16,568 nt of DNA from an uncultured Lachnospiraceae bacterium (GTDB taxonomy: Bacteria; Bacillota; Clostridia; Lachnospirales; Lachnospiraceae), in assembly GCA_905236615.1 (NCBI GenBank), contig CAJORC010000160.1, forward strand, positions 1-16,568, written 5' to 3'. Both the position numbers and the translations under genes were made by a program. Within the stretch, counting starts at the first letter, position 1, and every line of letters starts with the position of its first letter. The notes beneath the pieces are model-generated. The model did no database searches. It was not told where the DNA came from and was given only the letters and a program-made list of their open reading frames with translations. Of the stretch, positions 4,245 through 16,568 are shown one piece after another.

Positions 4245-4978
4245 AAAGAGTTATGCTGACTGTTGCCTATGACGGCACAAATTATCACGGCTGGCAGCTC
4301 CAGGACGGGCAGGTCACCATTGAAAGTGAGCTGAACAGCGCTTTGAGCAGGATAACGGGAGAAGATATAAAGGTGAGCGGTGCAAGCAGGACCGATGCCG
4401 GAGTACATGCAAAGGGAAATCTGTGTGTGTTTGATTCTGAAGCAAGGATGCCCGGAGAGAAATTCTCTTATGCGCTGAACACCTGCTTAAATGAAGATAT
4501 CAGGGTTGTGGACTCGGTTGAGGTCGCTGATGACTTTCATCCGAGATTCACAAAGACCGAGAAAACATATTGTTACAGAATTTACAATTCAAAATTCGCA
4601 AATCCGCTTTACAGGCTTTACTCACATCACAGTTATATTCCGTTAAATATTGATTTAATGAATAAAGGTGCAGAATTTCTTATAGGAGAGCATGACTTTA
4701 AGAGCTTTTCTTCCGTACATGCTTCAGTAAAGACAACGGTAAGGCAGATCACGGGAGCAGAGATCAAAAGAAGCGGAGAATTGATTGAAATCAATATAAA
4801 AGGATACGGCTTCTTGTATAATATGGTGCGGATAATTTCCGGAAGCCTGATGGAAGTTGGATCCGGCAAATATCCTCCCGAGCGGATAGGAGAGATTCTC
4901 GCAGCAAGGGACCGTGCAGCAGCAGGACCTACTGCACCGGCAAAGGGACTTACACTTGAAAATATAAGGATTTTATAA
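4241..4978 (+). CDS. truA: tRNA pseudouridine(38-40) synthase TruA
   Basis: TruA converts uridines 38-40 of the tRNA anticodon stem to pseudouridine. The 245-aa length is standard. The catalytic Asp is D52 within [15 protein letters not shown] (46-60). Other hallmarks are the N-terminal [20 protein letters not shown], and the C-terminal [17 protein letters not shown]. The start overlaps the ecfT stop as ATGA, with AGGGAAG (4226-4232) 8 nt upstream. In the common Firmicutes order truA is followed by rplM-rpsI. Here it is followed after a single base by a nifH-like gene, and rplM lies about 11.4 kb further on. Confidence 0.97.
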
Positions 4979-4979
4979 A

Positions 4980-5726
4980 ATGTTAAAAATTGCTATTTAC
5001 GGAAAAGGCGGTATAGGTAAATCTACGGTGACCGCCAATCTTGCAGCCGCATTTGCGGAAATGGGAAAAAAAGTCATACAGATAGGATGTGACCCGAAAG
5101 CGGACTCGACAATGAATCTGCTCGGAGGCGAAGCGGTCTCTTCGGTAATGACTTATATGAGGGAAAAAGACACGCTTCCCACGGATTACAATGAGATCAT
5201 AAAGAAAGGCTTCGGCGGGGTACTCTGTATAGAGACAGGCGGACCGACTCCGGGACTCGGATGTGCGGGAAGAGGCATCATAACTACTTTCCAGCTTCTT
5301 GACGGACTGAAGCTTTTCGAAAAGGAAAAGCCTGACGTCGTTCTTTACGATGTACTCGGTGACGTTGTCTGCGGAGGCTTTGCAGCTCCGATAAGGGAAG
5401 GCTATGCGGAGCAGGTCGTGATAGTGACTTCCGGCGAAAAAATGGCACTTTACGCAGCATCAAATATCAATGAGGCTGTTAAGAATTTCGAAGACCGCGG
5501 CTATGCCAATGTCAGAGGTATCGTCCTTAACCACAGGAATGTTGAGAATGAGACCGAGAAAGTCAGGAAATTCGCAGATGAAAGAGGAATCGATATTATA
5601 GGTGAGATCCCCAGAAGTGATGATATCATAGCCTGTGAAGATGAAGGCAAAACTGTCATTGAAGGCAGACCTTCATCGGAAGCGGCTCTTGAATTCAAAA
5701 AACTGGCGGAAAAGCTTTTAGCATAA
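4980..5726 (+). CDS. NifH-like iron protein (ATP-dependent [4Fe-4S] reductase)
   Basis: This is a homodimeric P-loop ATPase of the NifH/BchL/ChlL/CfbC type, expected to pass electrons from a [4Fe-4S] cluster to a nitrogenase-component-1-like partner on ATP hydrolysis. Visible motifs are Walker [10 protein letters not shown] (8-16), switch I CDPKADS (37-43), first cluster ligand C95 in GLGCAGRG, second ligand C131 in switch [18 protein letters not shown], and R98, which corresponds to the NifH ADP-ribosylation arginine. At 248 aa it is shorter than typical NifH (about 275-295), the difference being mainly at the C-terminus. It starts 1 nt after the truA stop, with TAAGGA (4965-4970) inside truA as ribosome binding site, so it is translationally coupled to truA. 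The partner is presumably the next gene. The sequence is close to true NifH, but the context (hyp genes, hydF, no nifB/E/N) argues against nitrogen fixation. The substrate is unknown. Confidence 0.9.
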
Positions 5727-5761
5727 GATAAGAAAAGATTTACAGCAAGGACAGATTTAGG

Positions 5762-8077
5762 ATGGGAAATAAGGCAGTATATTACACAAGTGCAGATCTT
5801 TCGAAAAGAGGAGCGGGGGATATACCTGAGGAATTCAGGCTCTCGTCAAACCTTATATACAGTTCTCCTGCGACTTTGAGTTACAATTCACCCGGAGCAA
5901 AGGGTTTCGGTGTAAAGCGCGGAGGACTTGCCATACCGGACTCGGTCATGCTGATAATAGCGCCGGGATGCTGTGCCCGAAATACATCCGATCTCAGCCG
6001 TATGAGAGAATATGAGAACCGTTTCTTTTATCTCACGATGGACGAAACAGATATCGTGACAGGACGGCACTTAAATAAAATTCCCGAAGCAGTGGCAGAG
6101 ATCGTGAGAATCCTTGATAAAAAGCCTTCACTTGTCATGCTCTGCGCAACCTGTGCGGATGCCCTGCTGGGAACCGATTTTGAAAGGGTTTCCAGAAAAG
6201 CTGAGGAGTTTGCGGGTGTAAAGGTACGTCCCTGTTACATGTATGCACTTACCAGAGAAGGCAGCAAACCGCCTATGACAGCACTTAGAGAGTCACTTTA
6301 TTCGCTCCTTGAAAAAAGAGAGCGCAGGGCGGACACGGTCAACCTTCTCGGGTATTTTGCACCGACAGATGAAAAGTCCGAGCTTTTCGAGCTTTTGAGA
6401 GATGCCGGAGTAAAAAAGATAAATCAGATATCGACCTGTAAAAACATAGATGAATTCTATTCAATGTCCGAGGCGAATTTCAATATAGTCTTAAATCCGG
6501 AAGCATCCTATGCGGCATCTGTAATGTCCGGAAAGCTTGGTACGCCTTATATAGAGCTCAGAAGATTTTACGATACGGAGCGTACAGCAAGACAGTACAG
6601 GGCATTTTTCAAGGCTTCTATGCTTGATTGCTCAGCGGAGAAATATTATGAAGAAGCGAAGAAAAGGGATGAGGAATTCAGCAGGAAATATGCCGGACTC
6701 AGAATCTCGATAGGTGAGTGTATAAATGCAAATCCCTTTGAGCTGGCGCTTACTCTAAGCCGTCTGGGATTGAAGACAGCAGAGATATTCGCACTGGTTA
6801 CGGAAGAGAGCTTTCCCTATATAGACAGGCTTGCAGAGATCAGCCCGGAAACGAAGATTTACTGCAATCAGAATCCATCCATGTATTTCTATGAGACGGA
6901 AAATGAAGTTGACATAAGTCTTGGAGCGGATGCGGCATATTACAGGAAGGGAGTTCCAAACATTCCTTTTAATGAGGATGTTCAGCCTTTTGGTTTTGCG
7001 GCAGCAGACAGGCTTTATGCTGAATTTGATAAAGTAATGTCTGACGGTTATAAAGAGGAGAAAAAGCCGGATTTTCCCGTAGGCAGCGGAGAAAAGGTAT
7101 TTTTATCCGACGGGCCCAAAGGGTTCAGAAGTGTACTTACTCCTTTCGCACCTGATCAGTCCGGAGCATCGGCGGTATTTTTCGGTGCGGGAGCCTTCAA
7201 CGTGATAGTTGATGCAGGAGGATGTGCAGGAAACGTATGCGGTTTCGACGAGCCGAGATGGTTCAGCGAAAAAGGAATGATATTCAGCGCAGGACTCCGC
7301 GACATGGATGCCATCCTTGGCAGGGACGAGGAGCTTGTTAAAAAAGTTGCCAAAGCCGTGAAGATTGCGAAACCGGAACTTATATCCCTTGTAATGACAC
7401 CTGTTCCTGCAATTACCGGAACGGATGGAAAGGGGCTTTCAAGACTCTGTGAGAGAGCCAGCGGAATAGAGACCGTGTCAGTATCTACAAACGGAGTCGA
7501 GCTTTATGACAAGGGTATTGAAAAGGCTGAGAAAGTCCTCGCGGAGCATGGGAAGAAAAGAAATGTGATAGGCCTTACACCTCTCGATTATCCGGGAATT
7601 GATGAAAAGACTCTTTATGAAAAATGGCGCGAAAGCGGAGCTGACGCGGATATTCTGGTGGTGTCCCCGGCAGCTGTGGAAGCTGCGGAAATCTATAAAG
7701 AAAAGCAGTCGCTGACTTATGAGATCGCATGGCCTTATGCGGAAGAGGAAGCTGAAAAACTGGAGATCCCGGAGCGGTTTGATGGGGAAAAGATACTTAT
7801 AATCCATTCCCAGGTAAGGGCGAATGAATTGCGGAAAGCTTTGAGGAAAAAGCTCCCTAAAGCTGATATAAGAGTTGCGGGCTTTTTCATAATGAACGAT
7901 TCGCTTATGGAAGATAAAGATATGAGGATCGCTGAAGAAGCGGATCTGACGGAATATCTGGATAAGGAAAAATTCTCGCTGATAATCGCTGACAGCGAGC
8001 TTAAAAAACTTATAAGGGGCGAAGTCCCTGAATGGAGGGAATTTCGGCATTTTGCAGTCAGCGGAAGGCTGCAGTAA
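5762..8077 (+). CDS. Fused double nitrogenase-component-1-like protein (D/K-like halves)
   Basis: The 771-aa protein carries two nitrogenase component 1 (oxidored_nitro fold) halves in one chain. Half 1 (about 1-430) has Cys at 70/71 (APGCCARN), 128/131 (MLCATCADALLGTD) and 158 (RPCYMYALTREG), matching the three P-cluster-type ligand positions. Half 2 (about 445-771) has C488/C493 (DAGGCAGNVCGFDEP). At the second ligand site it reads MTPVPAITGTDGKGL with no Cys, so the two halves are asymmetric, as in dark-operative reductases. Where NifD has its FeMo-co cysteine, half 1 reads NPEASYAASVMSGKLG, with none. Half 1 is recognisably paralogous to the 415-aa protein at 13513. Start ATG 5762 is supported by AAGGA at 5747-5751. 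It lies 35 nt after the nifH-like gene and 44 nt before hypF. It is likely the electron acceptor for the NifH-like protein. It could be a catalytic reductase or a cofactor-assembly scaffold like NifEN; the sequence does not decide. Confidence 0.8.
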   Translation: MGNKAVYYTSADLSKRGAGDIPEEFRLSSNLIYSSPATLSYNSPGAKGFGVKRGGLAIPDSVMLIIAPGCCARNTSDLSRMREYENRFFYLTMDETDIVTGRHLNKIPEAVAEIVRILDKKPSLVMLCATCADALLGTDFERVSRKAEEFAGVKVRPCYMYALTREGSKPPMTALRESLYSLLEKRERRADTVNLLGYFAPTDEKSELFELLRDAGVKKINQISTCKNIDEFYSMSEANFNIVLNPEASYAASVMSGKLGTPYIELRRFYDTERTARQYRAFFKASMLDCSAEKYYEEAKKRDEEFSRKYAGLRISIGECINANPFELALTLSRLGLKTAEIFALVTEESFPYIDRLAEISPETKIYCNQNPSMYFYETENEVDISLGADAAYYRKGVPNIPFNEDVQPFGFAAADRLYAEFDKVMSDGYKEEKKPDFPVGSGEKVFLSDGPKGFRSVLTPFAPDQSGASAVFFGAGAFNVIVDAGGCAGNVCGFDEPRWFSEKGMIFSAGLRDMDAILGRDEELVKKVAKAVKIAKPELISLVMTPVPAITGTDGKGLSRLCERASGIETVSVSTNGVELYDKGIEKAEKVLAEHGKKRNVIGLTPLDYPGIDEKTLYEKWRESGADADILVVSPAAVEAAEIYKEKQSLTYEIAWPYAEEEAEKLEIPERFDGEKILIIHSQVRANELRKALRKKLPKADIRVAGFFIMNDSLMEDKDMRIAEEADLTEYLDKEKFSLIIADSELKKLIRGEVPEWREFRHFAVSGRLQ

Positions 8078-8121
8078 CAGGAAGATTCTGCACTGGCTAG
8101 AGTTCTTAAGGTGAGATTTTG

Positions 8122-10422
8122 ATGAATGAAAAAACGCTTATTATAAGAGTATATGGTATAGTGCAGGGAGTCGGTTTCCGGCCTACTGTGGCGAGGATTG
8201 CCGAGAAAAACCAGATCAGGGGAACCGTCAGCAATTGCGGTCCCTATGTGGAGATATATGCACACGCTACTGATGAGAGGCTGGCTGCTTTTAAGAAGGA
8301 TATATCGGAAAATCCACCGGAACGCTCAGTTATACTCAGGATTGAGGAAGAAACCGCAGAACAGCATGAATTCGATGACTTCAGGATAATCGAGAGCAGT
8401 AAGACCAGCGGAGAACTCTTCATACCGCCGGATATTGCGATATGCGACAAATGCTCGGAAGAACTTTTCGATAAAAAGAACAGGCGTTATCTGCATCCTT
8501 TCATAAACTGCACCCAGTGTGGGCCGAGGCTCACGATCTTAGAGAAGCTTCCTTATGACAGATGCAGGACCTCCATGAAGAAATTTCCAATGTGTCCCGA
8601 ATGTGCGGAAGAATATGAGAATCCGGAAAGCCGCAGGTTTGATGCCCAGCCCGTATGCTGCAATGACTGCGGACCTAAGGTTTACAGTATAGACTGCAGG
8701 GATGGAAAAAAGTCGGAAGGACTTGAAGCAATAAGTCTTGTGAGGAAGATAATTTCTGAAGGCGGTATCGCGGCTGTTAAAGGGATAGGAGGATTTCACC
8801 TCTGTTGCGATGCGGCAAATGAGGATGCTGTAAAAACTCTGAGACAGAGAAAATCGCGTCCGGTAAAGCCTTTTGCGGTAATGCTTAAGGATAAGGAAAC
8901 CTTGCTGAGAGAAACGGATCCTGGAGATGATGCCGAAGAACTGCTGAAGATAATAAGCGGACACCAGAAGCCGATCGTTTTAATCCCTAAAGCTGCAGGC
9001 AGCAAAATTGCTGATTCGGTTGCACCGGGAAGCAGAAAAGTGGGTGTCATGCTGCCTTACGCTCCCGTACAGCTCCTGCTTTTTTCTCTTGAAGATGGTG
9101 TTGATATGCCCGATGCACTGGTCATGACGAGCGGAAACGTATCAGGTGCTCCGATCTGCCGGACGGATGAAGAAGCATTGTCGGAGATTGCCGGATTCTG
9201 CGATATTATTCTTTCAAATGACCGTGATATAAGGACGCGTGCCGATGATTCGGTCATGGATTTCTATAAGGGTGAACCTTATATGATAAGGCGTTCAAGG
9301 GGCTATGCACCGCTTCCTTTTCACCTTACAGGTGATTTTAATAAAAATGTGCTTGCAGTCGGGGGAGAACTTAAGAATACCTTCTGCATAGCGAAGGGAA
9401 ATCTGCTTTATCCTTCAGCTTATATAGGAGATCTGGCGGATATCCGTTCACAGCAGGCGCTGGAAGAAACGATCGGGCGCATGGAGGAAATGCTTGAGGT
9501 CAAGGCGGACACGGTTGCCTGTGACCTTCACCCGGCTTACTATTCGACTGCAATAGCAGAGAGAGCCGGAAGGAAAGTTGTCAGGGTACAGCACCATTAT
9601 GCCCATATATTGTCATGCATGGCGGAAAACGACTATTTGGAAGATCTTATCGGCGCGGCCTACGATGGAACCGGCTACGGAACAGACGGGACTATTTGGG
9701 GCGGTGAGATAATGCAAGCCGGACTCAGTGGTTTTGAAAGGCTTTTCAGCATCAGACCCTTCAGCCACGTCGGAGGAGACTCCGCTTCAAAAGAAGGCTG
9801 GAAGATAGCTGTTTCCATGCTGGATTCTATTCTGGAAGACGAAGAGGCATTGATAAAAACTGCGGAAAGCCTTGATTTATGCAGAAGTTCAGAGGCGCTT
9901 GTGATATCGCGGATGAAGAAGAACGGTCTCAATAGCGTGAGATCGACCAGCGCAGGACGGCTTTTTGATGCGGTCAGTGCGCTTCTTGGAATTGTAAGAA
10001 AGTCAACTTTCGAAGGAGAAGCTTCCATGGCGCTGCAGACGGCAGCGGAAAGCTACAGAGGAAATGATTTTAAGAAATATGAGCTCAAAATCTCTGATGA
10101 AGGCTTAGGTATTCTGCCAACGGACGAGCTCTTTTCAGATATACTTGAAATGAAGAAAAAAGGCGAAGAAACTGAAAAAATCGCATATTTTTTCCATGCT
10201 TCTCTGGCTGCCATGACGGCGGAGGCTGTAGTCAGAGCCGGCGAGGCAGCGGCTGTCAGGACAGCCGCACTGAGCGGAGGAGTATTTCAGAACCTGCTGC
10301 TGCTGCGCCTCACGGAAGAGGAGCTTGAGAGACGAAAAATCAAGGTCTTAAGGCATTCGCTCATTCCGCCTAATGACGGTGGAATTGCAGTCGGACAGGC
10401 GCTTGCTGCTGTATCAGATTAA
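8122..10422 (+). CDS. hypF: Carbamoyltransferase HypF (hydrogenase cyanide-ligand synthesis)
   Basis: HypF uses carbamoyl phosphate and ATP to make carbamoyl-adenylate and transfers the carbamoyl group to the C-terminal Cys of HypE, the source of the cyanide ligands on iron. The 766-aa protein shows all domains in order. The acylphosphatase domain is at 1-90 (YGIVQGVGFRPTVAR). Two zinc fingers use C108/C111, C130/C133, C158/C161 and C179 or C180/C183. A YrdC-like domain spans roughly 205-395 (KGIGGFHLCCDAAN, SGNVSGAPI). The Kae1-like carbamoyltransferase domain has HHYAH (491-495) and AYDGTGYGTDGTIWGGE (513-529). ATG 8122 is chosen over TTG 8119 because AAGGTGAG (8108-8115) is well spaced and the N-terminus fits the family. 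It appears complete and functional. It is the last gene before a terminator and is separated from hypCDE by a minus-strand remnant. Confidence 0.96.
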   Translation: MNEKTLIIRVYGIVQGVGFRPTVARIAEKNQIRGTVSNCGPYVEIYAHATDERLAAFKKDISENPPERSVILRIEEETAEQHEFDDFRIIESSKTSGELFIPPDIAICDKCSEELFDKKNRRYLHPFINCTQCGPRLTILEKLPYDRCRTSMKKFPMCPECAEEYENPESRRFDAQPVCCNDCGPKVYSIDCRDGKKSEGLEAISLVRKIISEGGIAAVKGIGGFHLCCDAANEDAVKTLRQRKSRPVKPFAVMLKDKETLLRETDPGDDAEELLKIISGHQKPIVLIPKAAGSKIADSVAPGSRKVGVMLPYAPVQLLLFSLEDGVDMPDALVMTSGNVSGAPICRTDEEALSEIAGFCDIILSNDRDIRTRADDSVMDFYKGEPYMIRRSRGYAPLPFHLTGDFNKNVLAVGGELKNTFCIAKGNLLYPSAYIGDLADIRSQQALEETIGRMEEMLEVKADTVACDLHPAYYSTAIAERAGRKVVRVQHHYAHILSCMAENDYLEDLIGAAYDGTGYGTDGTIWGGEIMQAGLSGFERLFSIRPFSHVGGDSASKEGWKIAVSMLDSILEDEEALIKTAESLDLCRSSEALVISRMKKNGLNSVRSTSAGRLFDAVSALLGIVRKSTFEGEASMALQTAAESYRGNDFKKYELKISDEGLGILPTDELFSDILEMKKKGEETEKIAYFFHASLAAMTAEAVVRAGEAAAVRTAALSGGVFQNLLLLRLTEEELERRKIKVLRHSLIPPNDGGIAVGQALAAVSD

Positions 10423-10424
10423 TT

Positions 10425-10463
10425 ATCGGAGGTCGGACATCAGATCCGGCCTCCGATTTTTTT
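10425..10463 (+). terminator. Rho-independent terminator after hypF
   Basis: A 13-bp stem with one G-U pair (10425-10437 with 10445-10457) closes on a 7-nt loop and is followed by seven T residues (10457-10463). It starts 3 nt after the hypF stop and would end the ecfA...hypF transcript. The hairpin could also act on minus-strand transcripts from the converging remnant gene, but the downstream run on that side is not T-rich. Confidence 0.9.
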
Positions 10464-11043
10464 CAGATAACAACACTTCCTTTGTAATTGTTTTTGAACT
10501 CAAGAATAAAATTATCGCCGGAAACCGTGCAGGTATAGTCTTTCTTTTTGGGTTTCATGATAATATTACCGGCCTTGATCCTGAGCTTTTTTACCGGGGG
10601 TTATCTTCTTCGAGCTGAACTGATAGGAAGGTGTTCCTGCAGTCGCACCATCGCTGAAGGACATTACAAGTACGTCATCACCGGTATAGACAGTTCTTGC
10701 TCCAATGCAGAAATTCCCATTTTTAGTTTCATAATAAAAATCCTTCCAATTGCCGTTTTCTTTATAGAAACTCTGTCCCGGAAGATTCAGCATCGCTGTC
10801 AACCATCATAGATTTTATCTCGCTGAATGATAAATCTTCGTCGGGCATGGGTACGTTTTTGTCCCAGGGCAGGCTGATGTGACCGGCCGGATGCGGAGCC
10901 AGACTATTCAGACTTTCGGAAATCTCATTTGCTTGTGCAGAATCATTTAAATTAATCTCTTCTTCTGCCATTATAGGTTGAGACATTGATAGAGAAAGGA
11001 CAAGTGTTAAGCTTATCAGAAGTTTGTTTTGTTTTTTAGTCAT
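10463..11043 (-). pseudogene. Frameshifted gene for a small secreted protein of unknown function
   Basis: Reading the minus strand, an ATG at 11043 with an ideal AAGGAG (11053-11058) begins a clear signal peptide: Lys-rich MTKKQNKLL, a hydrophobic Leu/Ser core, then a probable cleavage after Ile-Met-Ala before Glu-Glu-Glu. This frame stops at 10762-10764. Coding-like sequence continues in a second frame (MLNLPGQSFYKENGNWKDFY) up to a stop at 10566-10568. It continues again in a third frame (KKLRIKAGNIIMKPKKKDY) to TGA at 10463-10465. Each junction needs one base skipped. The first shift lies between about 10765 and 10806. The second lies at a C5/A6 homopolymer pair (10587-10600), where removing one C yields a smooth Ile-Thr-Pro-Val-Lys-Lys. 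The restored product would be about 193 aa. It is either a decaying gene or one with sequencing errors. I do not recognise a family. It lies between hypF and hypC on the opposite strand, apparently splitting one hyp set. Confidence 0.65.
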
Positions 11044-11169
11044 AGTTTTATTCTCCTTCATAATCCGGTAAAAAAGAAACTTCCGAGTCTTTTATCGGTA
11101 AGAGATGAAAAAAAGATTAGAAATTATTGAAGAAAATACAATATCCGTATACTGCTGAAAGCTGACAGG

Positions 11170-11198
11170 TTGACCGCAATTTATTAAGATGATAAACT
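11170..11198 (+). promoter_or_regulatory. Sigma-70-type promoter of the hypC-hypD-hypE-nifD-like-hydF operon
   Basis: TTGACC (11170-11175), a 17-bp spacer and TAAACT (11193-11198) place transcription start near 11205, about 35 nt before the hypC ATG. The -35 matches consensus at 5 of 6 positions and the -10 at 4 of 6. A second, weaker pair, TTGAAG (11127-11132) and TATACT (11148-11153), has only a 15-bp spacer. Confidence 0.6.
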
Positions 11199-11238
11199 TC
11201 AGAAGTAAAACTATGTTTTGAATAGAGGAGACATTTTT

Positions 11239-11448
11239 ATGTGTGTAGGTTTGCAGGCTAAAGTAGTAAGTGTGAATGATGGTGTGGCACTGGTTGATGC
11301 TTCGGGAGCAAAGAGGACTGTTTCGGCAGAGCTGATAGACAGCCTTGAGCCCGGAGATTATGTAATGGTGCATGCAGGTTCTGCGATCGCTAAAATTACA
11401 GACAGCGACAAGAAAGAAACGGAAGACCTTCTTTCGGGACTTTTCTGA
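11239..11448 (+). CDS. hypC: Hydrogenase maturation chaperone HypC
   Basis: HypC is the small chaperone that, with HypD, holds the iron atom while cyanide and CO ligands are attached, and then passes it on. The 69-aa product begins MCVG, giving the essential N-terminal Cys2, and contains the family motif PGDYVMVHAGSAI (38-50) with the conserved H45. The start is ATG 11239 with GAGGAG at 11225-11230. A longer reading from TTG 11218 would bury Cys2 and is rejected. It is the first gene of the second operon, 15 nt before hypD. There is only one HypC-like gene in the window. Confidence 0.95.
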   Translation: MCVGLQAKVVSVNDGVALVDASGAKRTVSAELIDSLEPGDYVMVHAGSAIAKITDSDKKETEDLLSGLF

Positions 11449-11463
11449 TTCGGAGGCGGAAAT

Positions 11464-12525
11464 ATGAATGAGTCGTTAAAAGCTGCCGTTGAATATATTA
11501 AAAATTACAATGGCAGAAAAATTCGAATGATGGAAGTCTGTGGGACCCACACACATGAAATATTCAGGCTCGGAATCAGGGAGCTGCTGAATGAAAACGT
11601 AGAGATAGTGTCAGGTCCCGGATGCCCGGTATGCGTAACGCCGCCGGGCTTTATTGATGAGGCGGTGGAACTTGCCCTTGATAAAAAGGTCACGGTATGC
11701 ACTTTCGGTGATCTGGTGAGAGTTCCCGGAACCGAGCAGAGCCTGTCAGAGGCAAAGGCATCAGGCGCAAAGGTGAAGGTCGTTTACTCGCCGCAGGACG
11801 CGGAGAAGTATGCGTCTGAGCACAGGGATGAGGAAGTGGCGTTCCTGTCCATAGGTTTTGAAACGACTACCCCGTCATCGGTTATTGCAGTTAAAAATGC
11901 CATAGCAGACGGACTTAAGAATTTCTCACTCCTTACAGCCAATAAGACCATGCCGGGTGCTTATGAGGCAATGGCTGACTTTGCGGATGTTTTCATATAT
12001 CCGGGACATGTTCATGCAATAAGCGGGATATCAGACTGTGAAAAAATGCTTGAGAAGGGTGTGAGCGGCGTTATAGCTGGCTTTACGGCAGACGAGCTTA
12101 TCAGTGCGATAGCTATAGCATTAAAGAAATCGGAATCGGGAAAACCCTTCTTCGTGAATGCCTATCCCAGAGTGGTCAAGGCAGAGGGAAGTCCCGAGGC
12201 ACAGAAGATGGTCAGACAGTTCATGGAAGAGACTGATGCGGAGTGGCGCGGAATAGGGGTAATAGCAGATTCCGGAATGTCGCTTAAATCAGAATATGCT
12301 GAATTCGATGCCGAGAAAAAATTCGGAATAGAAAGAAGAAGCGGAAGATCAAATCCCGGATGCCGCTGCGGAGAGATTCTTAAAGGCATGTGCAAACCTG
12401 CGGAATGTCCGCTTTTCGGTAAAGTATGCAGCCCGGAGCATCCAGTGGGAGCCTGCATGGTTTCGGGAGAGGGGACCTGCAGTGCCTACTATCTTTATGG
12501 AAAGGATAAAACAAATGTCAGATAA
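11464..12525 (+). CDS. hypD: Hydrogenase maturation factor HypD
   Basis: HypD is the [4Fe-4S] protein on which Fe(CN)2CO is assembled together with HypC. The 353-aa product has all signature motifs: MEVCGTHTHE with C26, GPGCPVCVTP with C54 and C57 (the redox/iron-binding pair), FETTTPS in the middle domain, and the Cys-rich C-terminal cluster region with C300, C302, C310, C315, C322, C331 and C339. Length and motifs are standard, so it should be functional. A ribosome binding site (GGAGGCGG) lies just upstream of the ATG. The 3' end overlaps hypE by 11 nt, typical of coupled expression of these partners. Confidence 0.97.
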   Translation: MNESLKAAVEYIKNYNGRKIRMMEVCGTHTHEIFRLGIRELLNENVEIVSGPGCPVCVTPPGFIDEAVELALDKKVTVCTFGDLVRVPGTEQSLSEAKASGAKVKVVYSPQDAEKYASEHRDEEVAFLSIGFETTTPSSVIAVKNAIADGLKNFSLLTANKTMPGAYEAMADFADVFIYPGHVHAISGISDCEKMLEKGVSGVIAGFTADELISAIAIALKKSESGKPFFVNAYPRVVKAEGSPEAQKMVRQFMEETDAEWRGIGVIADSGMSLKSEYAEFDAEKKFGIERRSGRSNPGCRCGEILKGMCKPAECPLFGKVCSPEHPVGACMVSGEGTCSAYYLYGKDKTNVR

Positions 12526-13519
12526 AATAACACTTGCAGAGGGCGCCGGCGGAAAACAGACAGCGGCGCTGATAGACAGTGTATTCAAGGAAAATTTCAC
12601 TAACGAATATTTTACCGCTGATGATGCGGCGGTTCTTCCACAGCCTAAGGGCAGGATCGCAATGTCAACGGACGGATTTATTGTTTCGCCGGTGTTCTTT
12701 CCGGGTGGAAATATCGGAAAGCTCTCGATCTGCGGAACGGTGAACGATCTTTCCTGTATGGGCGCCAGACCGCTCTATCTTACAAGTTCATTCATAATCG
12801 AAGAAGGCTTCGAAAAAGAAGATTTAAGAAAAATAGTTAGATCCATGGCTGAAACCGCGGCTTATGTCGGGGTTAAGATCGTTGCGGGAGATACAAAAGT
12901 AGTTCCCCACGGAAAGGCGGACGGAGTATTCATAACGACCACCGGAGTCGGAGAGATCATCACCGATAATGTTCCTTCGGGAGCAAAGGCAAAGCCCGGA
13001 GATGCGGTTATCGTGACCGGAGACGTGGGACGCCACGGTGCGACGATACTTCTGAGCCGTGATGATTATGGAATAGAGGCTGATATAAAGAGCGACTGCG
13101 CACCGCTCTGGAAAAGTGTGGAATCGGCAATAAAAGAAGTCGGGGACGTCCATGTGATAAGGGACGCAACGAGAGGCGGCGTTGGAACGGTTCTTTATGA
13201 AATAACCAAAGAAAGCGGCGTCGGAGTAAGACTTGAAGCTGAGGAGATCCCTGTAGCAGAGCCTGTAAGGGGCGTATGCTCCATGCTTGGTCTGGAGCCT
13301 TTGTACCTTGCCTGCGAGGGAACAATGGTAATGATAGTTCCCGATGAAAAGTCGGATAAACTTATAGAAACGCTTTCGAAGATAAGCGAAACAAAAGACG
13401 CTAAAAAAATCGGAGTTATCACAGAGGAGCACAGCGGACTGGTGAGCCTTAAAACTGAGATCGGAACCGAAACTGTACTTCCTGAGCCGGGACATGAGCT
13501 CCTGCCAAGAATATGCTAG
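12515..13519 (+). CDS. hypE: Hydrogenase maturation protein HypE
   Basis: HypE dehydrates the carbamoyl group received from HypF to a thiocyanate on its C-terminal cysteine and donates cyanide to the HypC-HypD iron. The 334-aa protein starts MSDKITLAEGAGGKQ and has the PurM/AIRS fold motifs GTVNDLSCMGA, GDTKVV and RDATRGGVGT. It ends in the canonical PRIC, so the reactive terminal Cys334 is present. ATG 12515 is preferred because AAAGGA (12501-12506) is 8 nt upstream. In-frame alternatives at 12482 and 12497 lie further inside hypD. The stop codon overlaps the following component-1-like gene by 7 nt, tying that gene tightly to hyp expression. Confidence 0.97.
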   Translation: MSDKITLAEGAGGKQTAALIDSVFKENFTNEYFTADDAAVLPQPKGRIAMSTDGFIVSPVFFPGGNIGKLSICGTVNDLSCMGARPLYLTSSFIIEEGFEKEDLRKIVRSMAETAAYVGVKIVAGDTKVVPHGKADGVFITTTGVGEIITDNVPSGAKAKPGDAVIVTGDVGRHGATILLSRDDYGIEADIKSDCAPLWKSVESAIKEVGDVHVIRDATRGGVGTVLYEITKESGVGVRLEAEEIPVAEPVRGVCSMLGLEPLYLACEGTMVMIVPDEKSDKLIETLSKISETKDAKKIGVITEEHSGLVSLKTEIGTETVLPEPGHELLPRIC

Positions 13520-14760
13520 AATACAATCCGCCGGCGCACGGCACATGGAACATAGTTCATATTGGGATGCAGATCCCGGACAGCCATCAGGTATACGTCT
13601 GTGCCATAAACTGCATGCGGGGCGTTACCATGACGGCTTTCGAAATGGGTGCGGAAGACCGTTTCAGCTGCGTTACTTTTGACGAGGAAGATCTGTTTAA
13701 GGACAATCTGGAAACAGTGACCATCGAAGGTACGGCTGAGGCAATAGAAAGTCTGGAAAAGCGTCCGCGTTCGGTACTGCTTTTTACGGTATGCACTCAC
13801 GCTTTTCTGGGAACGGATCTTGGAAAAGTATACGGGGAACTTAGGAAACGCTTTCCCGATATAGATTTCTGCAGATGCTATATGGATCCCATAATGCAGA
13901 AAAACGGCCCATCTCCGGAAATGAAGCTTCGTTATGCGATGTTTTCAAATTTAAAGCCTTTAGAGGTAAGGAAGAAAACAGCGGCGCTTTTAGGCATTGA
14001 CATGAAGGCGACTGCTGAAAACAGCGATATCGTGAAATTTCTTACCGATAACGGCTGGGAGATCAGGCAGTTACCGGACTGCAGGGATTATGATGAATTT
14101 CTGAAACTGGGAGAGTCGGAATTATTTATCTCTACACTTCCTACGGGAAAAGATGCGATAAGGCGTACGGCAGAGAGGCTCGGACGGAAATTTATCTATA
14201 TGCCCATGAGCTATTCTTCAGGAAAGATACGGGAGTCCATGAGAGAACTTGCAGAGCTCACGGGACTTGAATACGATCCGCAGATTTATGAAAAAGAAGC
14301 TTCAGATGCGGTAAAAAGTTTATATAATGTCATTGGCAGCAGAGAGATCGCGATAGACTACAGTGCCGCTCCGGAAATCTTTTCGCTTGCAGAATTCTTA
14401 TTGGAAAATGCTTTTAATCTGAACTATATTTATGCTGATACGGCAGCTGAGCATGAGAAAGAGATCATGGAGCGGATAAAGTCGGGCTCTAAGGTGAAAA
14501 TTCTCCCTATAATAGCTCCGGAGCAGAGAATGGCTGAGCGTAAAAAGACTGATATTCTCGCAATAGGGCAGAAAGCTGCATGGTTTTCAAATACAGAGCA
14601 TTTTGTGAACATTATTGAAAATGGCGGATTTTTCGGCTTCAGAGGAATTACAGCCCTGGCAGAACTTATGAAGGAAGCTTATAATACGGAAAAAGATACG
14701 GCTGATATAATACCGAGGAAGGCTGTTGGATTGTGCAGCTGCGTACCCGGCAACATCTGA
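13513..14760 (+). CDS. Single nitrogenase-component-1-like protein (NifD/NifE-like)
   Basis: This 415-aa protein has the nitrogenase component 1 pattern: C30/C34 in CAINCMRGVTMTAFEMG, C94 in LLFTVCTHAFLGTD, and C120/C122 in DFCRCYMDP. That gives three ligand positions for an FeS cluster at a subunit interface. It aligns with half 1 of the 771-aa protein around LLGTD/FLGTD, CYM and the CK/CR-x-x-DEF segment, where C190 matches C226 of the fused protein. No Cys lies in the stretch (STLPTGKDAIRRTAERLGRK) equivalent to the FeMo-co ligand region. The extreme C-terminus carries an unusual CSC (C408, C410). It starts inside the end of hypE (7-nt overlap, weak ribosome binding site, so coupled) and ends 14 nt before hydF. 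It may pair with the fused protein or act as an assembly scaffold. The component-1 membership is a motif-level call. Confidence 0.75.
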   Translation: MLEYNPPAHGTWNIVHIGMQIPDSHQVYVCAINCMRGVTMTAFEMGAEDRFSCVTFDEEDLFKDNLETVTIEGTAEAIESLEKRPRSVLLFTVCTHAFLGTDLGKVYGELRKRFPDIDFCRCYMDPIMQKNGPSPEMKLRYAMFSNLKPLEVRKKTAALLGIDMKATAENSDIVKFLTDNGWEIRQLPDCRDYDEFLKLGESELFISTLPTGKDAIRRTAERLGRKFIYMPMSYSSGKIRESMRELAELTGLEYDPQIYEKEASDAVKSLYNVIGSREIAIDYSAAPEIFSLAEFLLENAFNLNYIYADTAAEHEKEIMERIKSGSKVKILPIIAPEQRMAERKKTDILAIGQKAAWFSNTEHFVNIIENGGFFGFRGITALAELMKEAYNTEKDTADIIPRKAVGLCSCVPGNI

Positions 14761-14774
14761 TTTTGGAGGATAAA

Positions 14775-15956
14775 ATGGGATTAAATGATACACCGGCTTC
14801 GGAACGGCTTCATATTGCTTTTTTCGGACGGAGAAATGCCGGAAAGTCCAGTCTTGTAAATGCTCTCACAGGCCAGAACATGTCTGTGGTCTCGGATACT
14901 GCCGGAACTACGACGGATCCGGTTAAAAAGACGATGGAGATACTGCCTCTGGGCCCGGTTTACATTATTGATACGCCGGGCTTTGACGATGAAGGCGAGC
15001 TGGGTGAGCTCAGGGTAGAGAAGACCCGTGAGATAGTGAGACAGACTGACATTGCGGTACTTGTAACTGACGGCAGGGGCAGGGGAAACTGCGAAGCTGA
15101 ACTTGAAGAGATATTTAAGGAGAACTCCATTCCATATCTGATCGTTCGTAATAAGTCCGATATTGAGGAAAGCTCAGCTGATGATGAAAGTAAAAATCCG
15201 GTCGTTGTAAGTTCGAAAACTCTGGACGGGATAGAGGAACTGAAGGAGAAACTTTCACAGATGAAGCAGTCGGCGGGAAATGTCCGTGTGCTTCTGTCCG
15301 ACATTATAAATAAAGGCGAGCATGTCGTACTTGTGATTCCGATAGATGAGTCGGCACCGAAGGGACGTATAATCCTCCCCCAGCAGATGGTGATAAGAGA
15401 GCTTTTAGAGGTTGGAGCGGTAACTACGGTGGTCAAGGAAACGGAACTGGAAGAGACACTTGCAGGGATGAGCCAGCCGCCGAGAATGGTAATTACGGAT
15501 TCACAGGCTTTCGGAAAAGTCATGAAAATAGTTCCGGAAGAAGTGGAATTAACATCTTTTTCCATTCTGATGGCAAGATATAAGGGAACGCTAGAAACAC
15601 AGGTGAACGGTGTTGAGAGTCTTAAGAAGCTGAAAGGCGGAGAAAAGATACTGATATCCGAGGGCTGCACCCACAAAAGGCAGTGCAGGGATATCGGAAC
15701 CGTAAAGCTACCCGGCTGGATTCGGGAATTTACCGGGAAAGACTTTGAATTTGAAACGAGCTCCGGCGGAACATTTCCGAATGATCTGAAAAAGTATTCA
15801 CTTATAGTTCACTGCGGCGGATGCATGCTGAATGAGAAGGAAATGCAGGGCAGAATGAAAAGCGCATTAGAAGAAGGGGTTCCCTTCACAAATTACGGAA
15901 CCCTGATAGCATCGGTACACGGTATTTTAGAAAGAGCGCTTCGTCCCTTTTCATGA
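14775..15956 (+). CDS. hydF: [FeFe]-hydrogenase H-cluster maturation GTPase HydF
   Basis: HydF is the scaffold that carries the diiron subcluster precursor and transfers it to apo-HydA. The N-terminal TrmE/Era-like GTPase domain has the P-loop GRRNAGKSS (18-26), G2 DTAGTTTDP (41-49), G3 DTPG (66-69) and G4 NKSD (126-129). The C-terminal cluster-binding domain has the diagnostic Cys-X-His at C298/H300 and His-Cys-X-X-Cys at H346, C347 and C350, ligands of a [4Fe-4S] cluster. The 393-aa length is normal. ATG 14775 with GGAGGA (14765-14770) is the start; a farther in-frame ATG (14733) lies inside the preceding gene and adds unconserved residues. It is the last gene of the hypC operon. hydE and hydG, its usual partners, are not in the window. 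The convergent small gene begins only 2 nt after its stop. Confidence 0.95.
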   Translation: MGLNDTPASERLHIAFFGRRNAGKSSLVNALTGQNMSVVSDTAGTTTDPVKKTMEILPLGPVYIIDTPGFDDEGELGELRVEKTREIVRQTDIAVLVTDGRGRGNCEAELEEIFKENSIPYLIVRNKSDIEESSADDESKNPVVVSSKTLDGIEELKEKLSQMKQSAGNVRVLLSDIINKGEHVVLVIPIDESAPKGRIILPQQMVIRELLEVGAVTTVVKETELEETLAGMSQPPRMVITDSQAFGKVMKIVPEEVELTSFSILMARYKGTLETQVNGVESLKKLKGGEKILISEGCTHKRQCRDIGTVKLPGWIREFTGKDFEFETSSGGTFPNDLKKYSLIVHCGGCMLNEKEMQGRMKSALEEGVPFTNYGTLIASVHGILERALRPFS

Positions 15957-15958
15957 TA

Positions 15959-16138
15959 TTATGCGCCAAATGTGGCTTTCGGTATCCAGTTGGAACCGTC
16001 GTAATGATAGTTTACAAAGCAGCCTCTCACGGGGTCAACGATTATAAAGTCTGAGGCGCCGTCGGTATAAAGGTCATAATTTCCCTTTGTGACGGTACAG
16101 TAGAGGATTTTTTCTTTTTTCATCTGTTTTTCATCCAT
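15959..16138 (-). CDS. Small protein of unknown function, 59 aa
   Basis: The minus strand has ATG at 16138 with a consensus AAGGAGG (plus-strand 16149-16155) 10 nt upstream and a 59-codon frame ending at TAA (15959-15961). The predicted product begins MDEKQMKKEKILYC, has no obvious membrane segment or signal peptide, and is rich in aromatic residues (NYDLY, VNYHYDGSNW), suggesting a small folded domain. I do not recognise it. The strong ribosome binding site, candidate promoter and aromatic/acidic composition make it look real. It converges on hydF with a 2-nt gap, so the two transcripts must overlap at their 3' ends. No cue in the sequence links it to the hydrogenase genes. Confidence 0.65.
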   Translation of the reverse strand: MDEKQMKKEKILYCTVTKGNYDLYTDGASDFIIVDPVRGCFVNYHYDGSNWIPKATFGA

Positions 16139-16155
16139 GGATGCCCGACCTCCTT

Positions 16156-16193
16156 GCCAATATGATATCCAATATCCTGTATACCATATCGGC
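16156..16193 (-). other. Hairpin in the leader of the 59-aa gene
   Basis: The arms 16156-16168 and 16181-16193 form a 13-bp stem on the minus-strand RNA with two G-U pairs and a 12-nt loop. On the plus strand the same positions would be A-C mismatches, so the fold favours minus-strand RNA. It ends immediately beside the Shine-Dalgarno of the 59-aa gene. On the plus strand it is followed by TTTTT (16194-16198), so a weak terminator for hydF transcripts is an alternative reading. Confidence 0.4.
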
Positions 16194-16209
16194 TTTTTGG
16201 GACGGAAAG

Positions 16210-16238
16210 ATAATAGCTTTATGCTTTTTTAATATTAA
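16210..16238 (-). promoter_or_regulatory. Candidate minus-strand promoter for the 59-aa gene
   Basis: Read on the minus strand, TTAATA (plus 16233-16238), a 17-bp spacer and TATTAT (plus 16210-16215) resemble a sigma-70 promoter. The transcript would start near 16203 and immediately contain the hairpin and then the ribosome binding site. The -10 matches at 5 of 6 positions, the -35 at 4 of 6, in an AT-rich region, so chance is possible. Confidence 0.35.
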
Positions 16239-16256
16239 GAAATTTCTTCATATATC

Positions 16257-16285
16257 TTGACATGAAGAGTCTGATACGTTAAAAT
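16257..16285 (+). promoter_or_regulatory. Strong sigma-70 promoter of rplM
   Basis: A perfect TTGACA (16257-16262), a 17-bp spacer and TAAAAT (16280-16285) place the start near 16292. The ribosomal pair rplM-rpsI would thus be transcribed on its own here, instead of with truA. Confidence 0.85.
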
Positions 16286-16290
16286 ATTAA

Positions 16291-16335
16291 GCGCTGCAAA
16301 CCACAGCCCCGGTCTTGCGGCCTGAAACAATATTC
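16291..16335 (+). ncRNA. L13-leader-like RNA element upstream of rplM
   Basis: The transcript's first ~45 nt can form GCTGCAA (16293-16299) paired with TTGCGGC (16315-16321), 7 bp with one G-U, around a C-rich loop ending in CCCCGGTC. It is located between the promoter and the rplM ribosome binding site. Position and sequence resemble the Firmicutes L13 leader, an autoregulatory element bound by L13. The match is from memory of the motif, not from a covariance search. Confidence 0.6.
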
Positions 16336-16364
16336 TAATTTCTTTGTTTATTTGGAGGAAAATA

Positions 16365-16568
16365 ATGGATACATATATGGCAAGCCCGGCTACCATCGAG
16401 AGAAAATGGTACGTTGTAGATGCCGAGGGACAGACACTCGGACGTGTTGCTTCCCGCGTGGCAATGGTACTCAGAGGTAAAAACAAGCCTACATACACAC
16501 CTTTCCTTGATACAGGTGATTATGTAATTGTTATAAACGCATCAAAGATTAAGGTTACAGGTAAGAAG
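16365..16568 (+). CDS. rplM: 50S ribosomal protein L13 (3' truncated by window edge)
   Basis: L13 is an early-assembly protein of the large ribosomal subunit. The first 68 codons are visible. The start [18 protein letters not shown] and the downstream [19 protein letters not shown] and [20 protein letters not shown] are diagnostic. Full-length L13 is about 145 aa, so a little over half lies beyond the window. GGAGGA (16354-16359) sets the ATG at 16365 rather than Met5 at 16377. rpsI is expected next. Its separation from truA by the hyp/nif-like/hydF block is the main anomaly of this otherwise standard neighbourhood. Confidence 0.97.

Follow-up and report, generated by a model that had tools for sequence, protein, structure and literature searches.

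Many gut bacteria appear to build the [FeFe]-hydrogenase H-cluster without HydG, through a cluster of nitrogenase-like and Hyp proteins

Nitrogenase-like proteins usually serve special reductions or the making of cofactors. What, then, might they make next to the HypC, HypD, HypE and HypF proteins of [NiFe]-hydrogenase maturation and to HydF, a scaffold of H-cluster assembly in [FeFe]-hydrogenases? The question is raised by a stretch of 16,568 nucleotides (nt) from an uncultured Lachnospiraceae bacterium, hereafter the window (16.6 kb; contig C160 of a 2.47-Mb assembly of 447 contigs that is 76% complete). Here a NifH-like protein (NifH1), a fused nitrogenase component-1-like protein (D1K1), the four Hyp proteins, a second component-1-like protein (D') and HydF are encoded in one block. 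An earlier note, made from this sequence alone, proposed that the block encodes an alternative assembly route for the H-cluster, or for a new Fe-CN/CO cofactor, possibly replacing HydE and HydG. We observe that the cluster goes with the loss of HydG, not with that of HydE. Many gut bacteria appear to build the H-cluster without HydG by means of this Nif-like and Hyp cluster, and the system very probably replaces HydG.

Distribution of the cluster and of HydG

A D' profile was searched against the contigs of 84,980 species, each represented by a single genome, which returned 170 D'-related places. The best 80 of these were kept as cluster loci (81 with the window); D' lies above the score limit used in 80 of the 81, the exception being L077. 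HydG is found in none of the 80 cluster loci, and HydE lies within 25 of the 81. Fifty of the 80 host genomes, referred to below as cluster genomes, were then searched. HydG exceeds its cut-off in a single one (G067), whereas a HydE-type cross-match is present in 47 (none in G071, G072 and G105). HydA is present in 48 (not found in G061 and G068), no [NiFe] large-subunit match was obtained in 46, and 32 have neither HydG nor a match resembling the radical-SAM enzyme ThiH. The alternative H-cluster route is therefore well supported, HydG over cut-off being missing from 49 of the 50 cluster genomes, and of the suggested replacement of HydE and HydG the HydG half stands while the HydE half does not. 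A joint loss of both was rejected: the window's genome keeps an intact HydE directly downstream of K', the component-1-like gene that usually follows D'.

The class sample comprises 292 genomes, in which HydF was accepted at E up to 1e-70 and D' was counted as strong at E below 1e-150. HydF was found in 199 genomes (198 over cut-off), HydG in 188 and strong D' in 13. Among the HydF-positive genomes, HydG accompanies none of the 13 with D' versus 181 of the 186 without it (Fisher p 1e-16). All 13 genomes with strong D' have HydF, and D' is a marker of the HydG-less system. In genus g116, six of the eight HydF-positive genomes carry D' without HydG and the other two (G185 and G327) carry HydG without D'; both states also occur within families f1, f38, f40, f57 and f60. 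This alternation, together with the six to eight changes on the HydE and HydF trees described below (fewer if only well-supported branches are counted), speaks against a purely lineage-bound pattern. As a control, four of the five class genomes with only distant D'-like matches carry HydF and HydG together, and distant relatives of D' therefore do not track the loss of HydG. Around HydG itself (35 HydG-centred class loci), HydE or HydF is nearby in 30, and within about 10 kb there is no match to HypD, HypE or nif-like proteins over 150 bits.

In the family sample of 60 genomes, HydF exceeds its cut-off in 32, five of which are without HydG over cut-off. G000 and G025 have strong D', G048 has a distant trio and G011 has none, and G047 retains a HydG fragment at 262 bits. 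Of eight Clostridium acetogens, five are reported to have no HydG that a motif search could detect (PMC9431212).

HydE, HydF and HydA in the two kinds of genome

HydE, HydG and HydF are commonly neighbours in HydG genomes. We compared the conserved columns (thresholds of at least 95% and 90%) of HydE and HydF between cluster and HydG genomes, counting the HydE and HydF of G048 as cluster proteins. For HydE, 88 columns are conserved alike in 30 cluster and 47 HydG-genome proteins, with 1 weak difference; for HydF, 96 columns are conserved alike in 38 and 44 proteins, respectively, with 1 trivial difference. No change of specificity was found in HydE or HydF by this comparison. On the trees, the cluster and HydG labels require 8 changes for HydE and 7 for HydF (7 and 6 without G048 and the long rows). 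The plain reading is that both sources would provide HydE with the same synthon or an equivalent one, and that the partners were probably exchanged more than once. What the sequences show is the pattern of replacement, the gene set, and a HydE and HydF that are unchanged.

The window's own genome encodes HydE on contig C195 (TIGR03956, 571.3 bits over a cut-off of 254.6). A 4.6-kb contig carries K' directly before HydE, so that D' neighbours HydF and K' neighbours HydE; the idea that K' is missing from this genome was accordingly rejected, since it adjoins HydE on another contig than D'. Two PF02906 (HydA) proteins are encoded. The first contains TSCCPAW, MPCLAKKAE and EVMACPGGC, which we take to be the three H-cluster motifs, and the second is without two of the strict motifs. 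The genome-wide check left over from the earlier note thus finds HydE and HydA, and for HydG it gives no match over cut-off in this 76% complete assembly.

Hydrogenase activity has been described in two species of this kind. Blautia luti is an H2 producer whose extracts oxidise H2, with an H2:methyl-viologen activity of 14 to 644 mU/mg over six conditions, and B. schinkii is quoted at about 23,000 mU/mg (PMC12773636); the main text of that paper mentions neither maturation nor nitrogenase. The genomes G065 (B. luti) and G073 (B. schinkii), which correspond to the assayed strains at the level of species, carry the cluster with no HydG over cut-off and no [NiFe] match.

The gene block and its variants

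By the Pfam and NCBIfam scores of the window proteins, all the genes that the earlier note had named are present, in the order it gave. The features are as follows (aa, amino acids).

4980..5726, + strand: NifH1, NifH-like ATP-dependent iron-sulphur reductase, 248 aa (PF00142, 299 bits)
5762..8077, + strand: D1-K1, fused nitrogenase component-1-like protein, 771 aa (PF00148, 141 bits in 2 stretches; family A2)
8122..10422, + strand: hypF, carbamoyltransferase, with its start at TTG 8119 or ATG 8122 (TIGR00143, 748 bits, cut-off 466)
10425..10457, + strand: intrinsic-terminator-like stem-loop 3' of hypF (13 pairs, T6)
11239..11448, + strand: hypC, likely start at MCVGL, which keeps the N-terminal Cys2 (TIGR00074, 64.3 bits, cut-off 48)
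11464..12525, + strand: hypD (TIGR00075, 379 bits, cut-off 192.8)
12515..13519, + strand: hypE, with a C-terminal PRIC (TIGR02124, 414 bits, cut-off 251.6)
13513..14760, + strand: D', second nitrogenase component-1-like protein, alpha-type (PF00148, 46.9 bits; family A1/A3)
14775..15956, + strand: hydF, GTPase scaffold of H-cluster assembly (TIGR03918, 541.5 bits, cut-off 325.55)

The PRIC motif at the end of HypE is described in PMC12130793. D' matched no NCBIfam family in the search of the window proteins. The 7-nt overlap of hypE and D' and the 14 nt between D' and hydF are as the earlier note had them, and hypD and hypE overlap by 11 nt. Its near-continuous block is interrupted between hypF and the likely start of hypC by a gap of 816 nt, which opens with the terminator-like stem at 10425-10457. 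Because of this gap and stem, the block is likely to comprise two transcription units: NifH-like, fused D/K-like and hypF on the truA side, then the terminator and gap, then hypC, hypD, hypE, D-like and hydF on the rplM side. The terminator scan of the window gave 10 sites against 11.0 expected by chance, the other sites having only 5-7 pairs, and the promoter scan was uninformative (21 found, 17.1 expected). The window has no Rfam match and no tRNA, and neither HypA nor HypB is among its genes. On the - strand of the hypF-hypC gap (10566-11061) lie two overlapping short frames of 78 and 99 aa, one with a signal-peptide-like start by eye and neither with a Pfam match. The flanking genes, named by eye, are rpoA, rplQ, two ECF ATPases, EcfT and TruA, with rplM at the far end. 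The cluster occupies the truA-rplM junction (window 4978-16368), which is normally short.

The cluster is conserved in gut Clostridia, Coriobacteria and Erysipelotrichaceae. The records of the best 80 loci are titled Lachnospiraceae (including Blautia, Roseburia faecis, Coprococcus and Anaerobutyricum), Oscillospiraceae, Ruminococcaceae, Coriobacteriaceae, Atopobiaceae, Erysipelotrichaceae and others, with rumen Coriobacteria also among them. The genes usually run NifH1-D1-K1-HypF-HypC-HypD-HypE-(NifH2)-D'-K', HydF and HydE often coming next, and the D and K halves of D1-K1 are separate genes in many relatives. Where 8.5 kb or more lie upstream of D' (55 loci, window included), D1 and HypE each occur in 53, HypD, HypC, HypF and NifH1 each in 52, K' in 51 and NifH2 in 24. 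The grouping is therefore beyond chance, with each gene but NifH2 in 51-53 of the 55. Of the 63 loci that extend 4 kb or more downstream, 35 include HydF or HydE. The few homologues that bear a specific name at source are labelled 'nitrogenase' or 'nitrogenase component 1'.

Two further genes recur. A TM1266-type [FeFe]-hydrogenase system protein (TIGR03959), which is not in the window, is encoded in 57 of the 81 cluster loci, in 34 of the 57 loci of HydG genomes and in none of the 7 separate nif-like loci. An aspartate-ammonia-lyase-like gene is found in 8 of the 81 cluster loci and 3 of the 57 HydG-genome loci; the protein of L053 passes NF008909 and fails the aspA equivalog. Ammonia-lyases have been linked to hydF, to hyd operons and to the bridging ligand (PMC11736057). 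A dedicated extra enzyme, for example a source of CO, was looked for and rejected, the TM1266-type protein (58 of 88 loci) and the rare aspartate-ammonia-lyase-like gene being all that recurs. Nor was a gene of another target found: besides the TM1266 family, the sole set in more than 10% of the 88 loci is one of 16 loci, taken for antisense frames.

The nitrogenase-like proteins of the window fall under the curated cut-offs of NifH and NifD. NifH1 scores 308.8 bits with NCBIfam nifH (cut-off 394.35) and 311.1 with CfbC (cut-off 402), and the P-loop, C95 and C131 are among those of its residues that reach 95% conservation or above across 50 relatives. D1K1 scores 42.2 bits with nifD (cut-off 653.55) and 34.1 with the CfbD-type TIGR03282 (cut-off 268.4); D' has no nifD match. 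The AlphaFold2 (AF2) model of D1K1 has a predicted local distance difference test (pLDDT) score of 82, and its best Foldseek match is the fused NifEN maturase 9i0g, with an overall template-modelling (TM) score of only 0.39 and 16% identity; taken as halves against single chains, the target TM is about 0.6. The D' model (pLDDT 83) matches nitrogenase, NifEN and DPOR component 1 with TM of about 0.6-0.67. The modelled fold of D' and D1K1 would thus be that of ATP-driven reductases, a fold that does not indicate the substrate. Conserved cysteines (C30, C34 and C94 in D', one in K' and several in D1 and K1) would fit an iron-sulphur cluster between subunits. Such an inter-subunit cluster has been suggested for these clades, in which the FeMo-cofactor ligands Cys275 and His442 are reported absent (PMC3464626).

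We then asked whether all parts of the cluster are constant. In the class set, HypD and strong D1K1 occur together in 10 of the 13 D' genomes. They were not found in the remaining three, G172, G238 and G315, which are 99-100% complete and all have HydF. In these, NifH2-D'-K' is joined to a FecB/FecC/FecE-type transporter, in the order HydE-NifH2-D'-K'-FecB-FecC-FecE-HydF in G315, NifH2-D'-K'-FecB-FecC-FecE-HydE in G172 and FecC-FecE-NifH2-D'-K'-FecB in G238, where HydE was not seen in the regions fetched. By Pfam and NCBIfam the transporter falls among importers of siderophores, haem and B12, with no family over cut-off, and is predicted to be of the metallophore type. In G238, the ABC transporter ATPase (L111:12266-13321) has a fused C-terminal TM1266-like domain (PF21699, 68.6 bits). 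On a quick tree of sampled D rows, the D' of the three genomes stand at the base of the D' clade, D1 forms a distinct clade, and six of seven separate trios come next outside the D' clade. From this branching order and from the Hyp-less, transporter-linked genomes, NifH2-D'-K' looks like the constant substitute for HydG, and HypFCDE with D1K1 like a later, internal supply of the item that the transporter would import. Weak D' matches outside the 13 genomes are found in G004, G048, G059, G174, G229, G237, G244 and G352. Seven of the corresponding regions (L103 and L105-L110, in genomes G048, G059, G004, G229, G244, G237 and G352) were viewed; six (L103, L105-L109) show a separate NifH-D-K-FecB-FecC-FecE set with neither hyp nor hyd genes, and L110 shows D-K-FecB at the start of a contig.

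A proposed route and its rivals

HydG splits tyrosine to yield CO and cyanide; its product, Fe(Cys)(CO)2(CN), goes to HydE, and the CO and cyanide ligands of the H-cluster are described as coming from HydG (PMC11736057). In [NiFe] maturation, carbamoyl phosphate is the substrate for cyanide formation by HypF and HypE, the anaerobic source of CO being unresolved (PMC12134894), and the Fe protein of nitrogenase alone can reduce CO2 (PMC9571451). On the basis of this chemistry, HypFCDE would provide cyanide, and the two reductases electrons, CO and a scaffold. We infer each chemical step and the order of hand-over as follows. HypF and HypE would make cyanide from carbamoyl phosphate and load it onto iron at HypC-HypD. 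NifH1 and D1K1, which are tied to HypFCDE, would carry out an ATP-driven reduction at that iron, most likely adding an extra CO (from CO2, or from a formyl or carbamoyl donor) or turning Fe(CN)2CO mono-cyano. NifH2 and D'K', a putative NifEN-like ATP-driven reductase and scaffold, would then hand a low-valent Fe-CO-CN unit to HydE, and HydE and HydF would complete the cofactor as usual. As a whole, the best explanation is probably that HydG is gone and that the Nif/Hyp hybrid supplies HydE with an Fe-CO-CN synthon independently of tyrosine. The detailed chemistry is tentative and may well differ from that given here.

A number of observations weigh against this account. Firstly, the exclusion has exceptions. 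The two systems occur together in G067 (locus L015, Oliverpabstia intestinalis). Two genomes of the family sample (G011 and G048) are without HydG and without strong D', as are five HydF-positive class genomes (G235, G254, G290, G362 and G365), of which G254, G362 and G365 are 98-99% complete. Two of the 50 cluster genomes gave no HydA and three no HydE-type match. Six of the 13 D' class genomes belong to one genus, and the absence of HydG from the window's genome is weak on its own because that assembly is 76% complete. The HydE and HydF trees are quick trees, on which well-supported branches force only 5 (HydE) and 2 (HydF) changes for cluster rows, or 2 and 2 after dropping G048 and the long rows. 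Secondly, the chemistry has difficulties of its own. HypCD normally makes two cyanides per iron and the H-cluster has one per iron, a difficulty which the earlier note had raised and which stays real. Three D'K' genomes are without HypD and D1K1, and a genome can thus do without HydG even where HypCDEF is not at hand. In Ralstonia eutropha, labelling excluded added CO2 as the direct source of the [NiFe] CO ligand (PMC12134894), which disfavours CO2 as the donor, albeit from another organism. Finally, with HydG left out, HydE and HydF by themselves still reach about 1% activation (PMC9431212), and some activity could therefore be unassisted.

Two side observations bear on these genomes. G067, the sole cluster genome with HydG, is a natural strain for comparing both routes. 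G254, G362 and G365 (L099, L100 and L101) may represent a further HydG-less way or a pathway being lost; by eye, the neighbours of HydF in the HydG-less, D'-less genomes (L099-L102) include no obvious substitute.

Four other explanations were weighed. It is possible, if rather doubtful, that NifH2 and D'K' are a full substitute for HydG, either by generating CO and cyanide or through reduction of a metal chelate brought in from outside, and that HypFCDE-D1K1 is a later add-on feeding the same step. The three transporter-linked genomes, with HydF and without HypD or D1K1, would be explained in this way, as would their basal D' and the TM1266-like fusion of the G238 transporter ATPase; however, there are only three such genomes, with HydE seen in two of them, and HypD and D1K1 are always present in the other 10 D' genomes of the class set.

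It is unlikely that the product of the cluster is a new Fe-CN/CO cofactor destined for some other enzyme, with HydF and HydE recruited to its assembly. The HypCD product Fe(CN)2CO does mismatch the single cyanide per iron of the H-cluster, but 48 of the 50 cluster genomes have HydA, HydE and HydF show no specific divergence and keep the residues conserved in HydG organisms, a TM1266-type protein is embedded in 57 of the 81 loci, and nearby genes include no conserved one of another target. The new cofactor offered by the earlier note as its second option is disfavoured on these grounds.

We consider it very unlikely that two systems merely stand side by side, HypCDEF serving a [NiFe]- and HydF an [FeFe]-hydrogenase while the nif-like genes act elsewhere and the neighbourhood is historical. 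The Hyp proteins of the window do exceed their curated cut-offs, and 4 of the 50 cluster genomes (G060, the nearest relative of the window, G066, G087 and G104) have a [NiFe] large-subunit match. Those of L087 (G087) and L088 (G066) have by eye a group-4 (Ech-type) look with both CxxC motifs, one alongside a HypA-like frame, so that the same HypCDEF could serve both kinds of hydrogenase there. Yet 46 of the 50 are without such a match, several classes share the conserved order, genomes with D' are without HydG, and HypA and HypB are not among the window genes.

Lastly, it is highly improbable that another radical-SAM enzyme (ThiH-like), or stray CO and cyanide, does the work of HydG with the cluster only loosely linked: 18 of the 50 (G067 included) have a match at 167-206 bits to the HydG model, taken for ThiH, and the 1% activation and the five HydF class genomes with neither HydG nor D' would fit, but 32 of the 50 have no HydG or ThiH-like match, the activity of B. 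schinkii is high (PMC12773636), and the mutual exclusion of cluster and HydG would be left unexplained.

Relation to known systems and significance

The preferred account, a Nif/Hyp hybrid in place of HydG, shares parts with several known systems. With the HydE-HydF-HydG pathway it has in common HydE, HydF and HydA, the conserved columns of HydE and HydF, the nearby TM1266-type protein and, in 8 of 81 loci, the aspartate-ammonia-lyase-like gene; it differs in that HydG is absent from 49 of 50 genomes, with NifH-like, component-1-like and Hyp proteins in its place. From the [NiFe] maturation branch it has HypC, HypD, HypE and HypF, all over curated cut-offs, but linked to HydF, with no [NiFe] large-subunit match in 46 of 50 genomes and no hypA or hypB in the window. 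Like NifEN with NifH, it combines two component-1-like subunits and a NifH-like reductase in a cofactor-building cluster, and D1K1 matches 9i0g best; the likeness is one of fold only, at 16% identity, D1K1 and D' lying far under every NCBIfam cut-off and the partners being Hyp and Hyd proteins. A NifH-like ATP-driven reductase with a component-1 partner is likewise found in CfbCD (F430), DPOR/COR and methylthio-alkane reductase. For CfbC/CfbD and DPOR, however, the scores fall under the cut-offs and the block holds no tetrapyrrole or sulphur genes; methylthio-alkane reductase was compared with D' by fold only.

The neighbourhood has been noticed once before in the literature covered, which left out most subscription papers and all bioRxiv preprints; none of the papers covered reports a replacement of HydG or connects this neighbourhood with genomes in which HydG goes undetected. 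Dos Santos et al. (2012, PMC3464626) described a 'NifHEN-like' group of Coprococcus catus and Dorea longicatena, in two linked copies near hydrogenase maturation proteins, and guessed that it may help to assemble an active-site metallocluster. This is very likely the same system, and L067 of the present set comes from a C. catus strain. The available portion of that paper makes no mention of the loss of HydG, the hydrogenase served, the exchange of partners of HydE and HydF or the two-part structure.

Taken at its widest, our account would be that the H-cluster has a second biosynthesis, independent of tyrosine and widespread in the mammalian gut, in which an ATP-driven NifH2-D'K' makes or reshapes the Fe-CO-CN synthon for HydE. 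It would have begun as a NifHDK system linked to a transporter, replaced HydG more than once and later taken on HypFCDE and a second NifHDK pair as an in-cell source of an Fe-cyanide precursor, so that the nitrogenase-like, [NiFe]- and [FeFe]-assembly lines form one pathway, and D1K1 may be where the CO ligand, whose anaerobic origin has long been sought, comes from; we judge the case for this wider account to be evenly poised. The origin of the CO ligand has been called the most pressing question for [NiFe]-hydrogenases (PMC12134894). If many gut H2 producers do make the cofactor in another way, the account of H-cluster biosynthesis would change, as would the view of how three cofactor assembly lines evolved and any survey with HydG as its marker, and the finding would give a genetic handle on the anaerobic source of the CO ligand and on the role of nitrogenase-like proteins in the gut.

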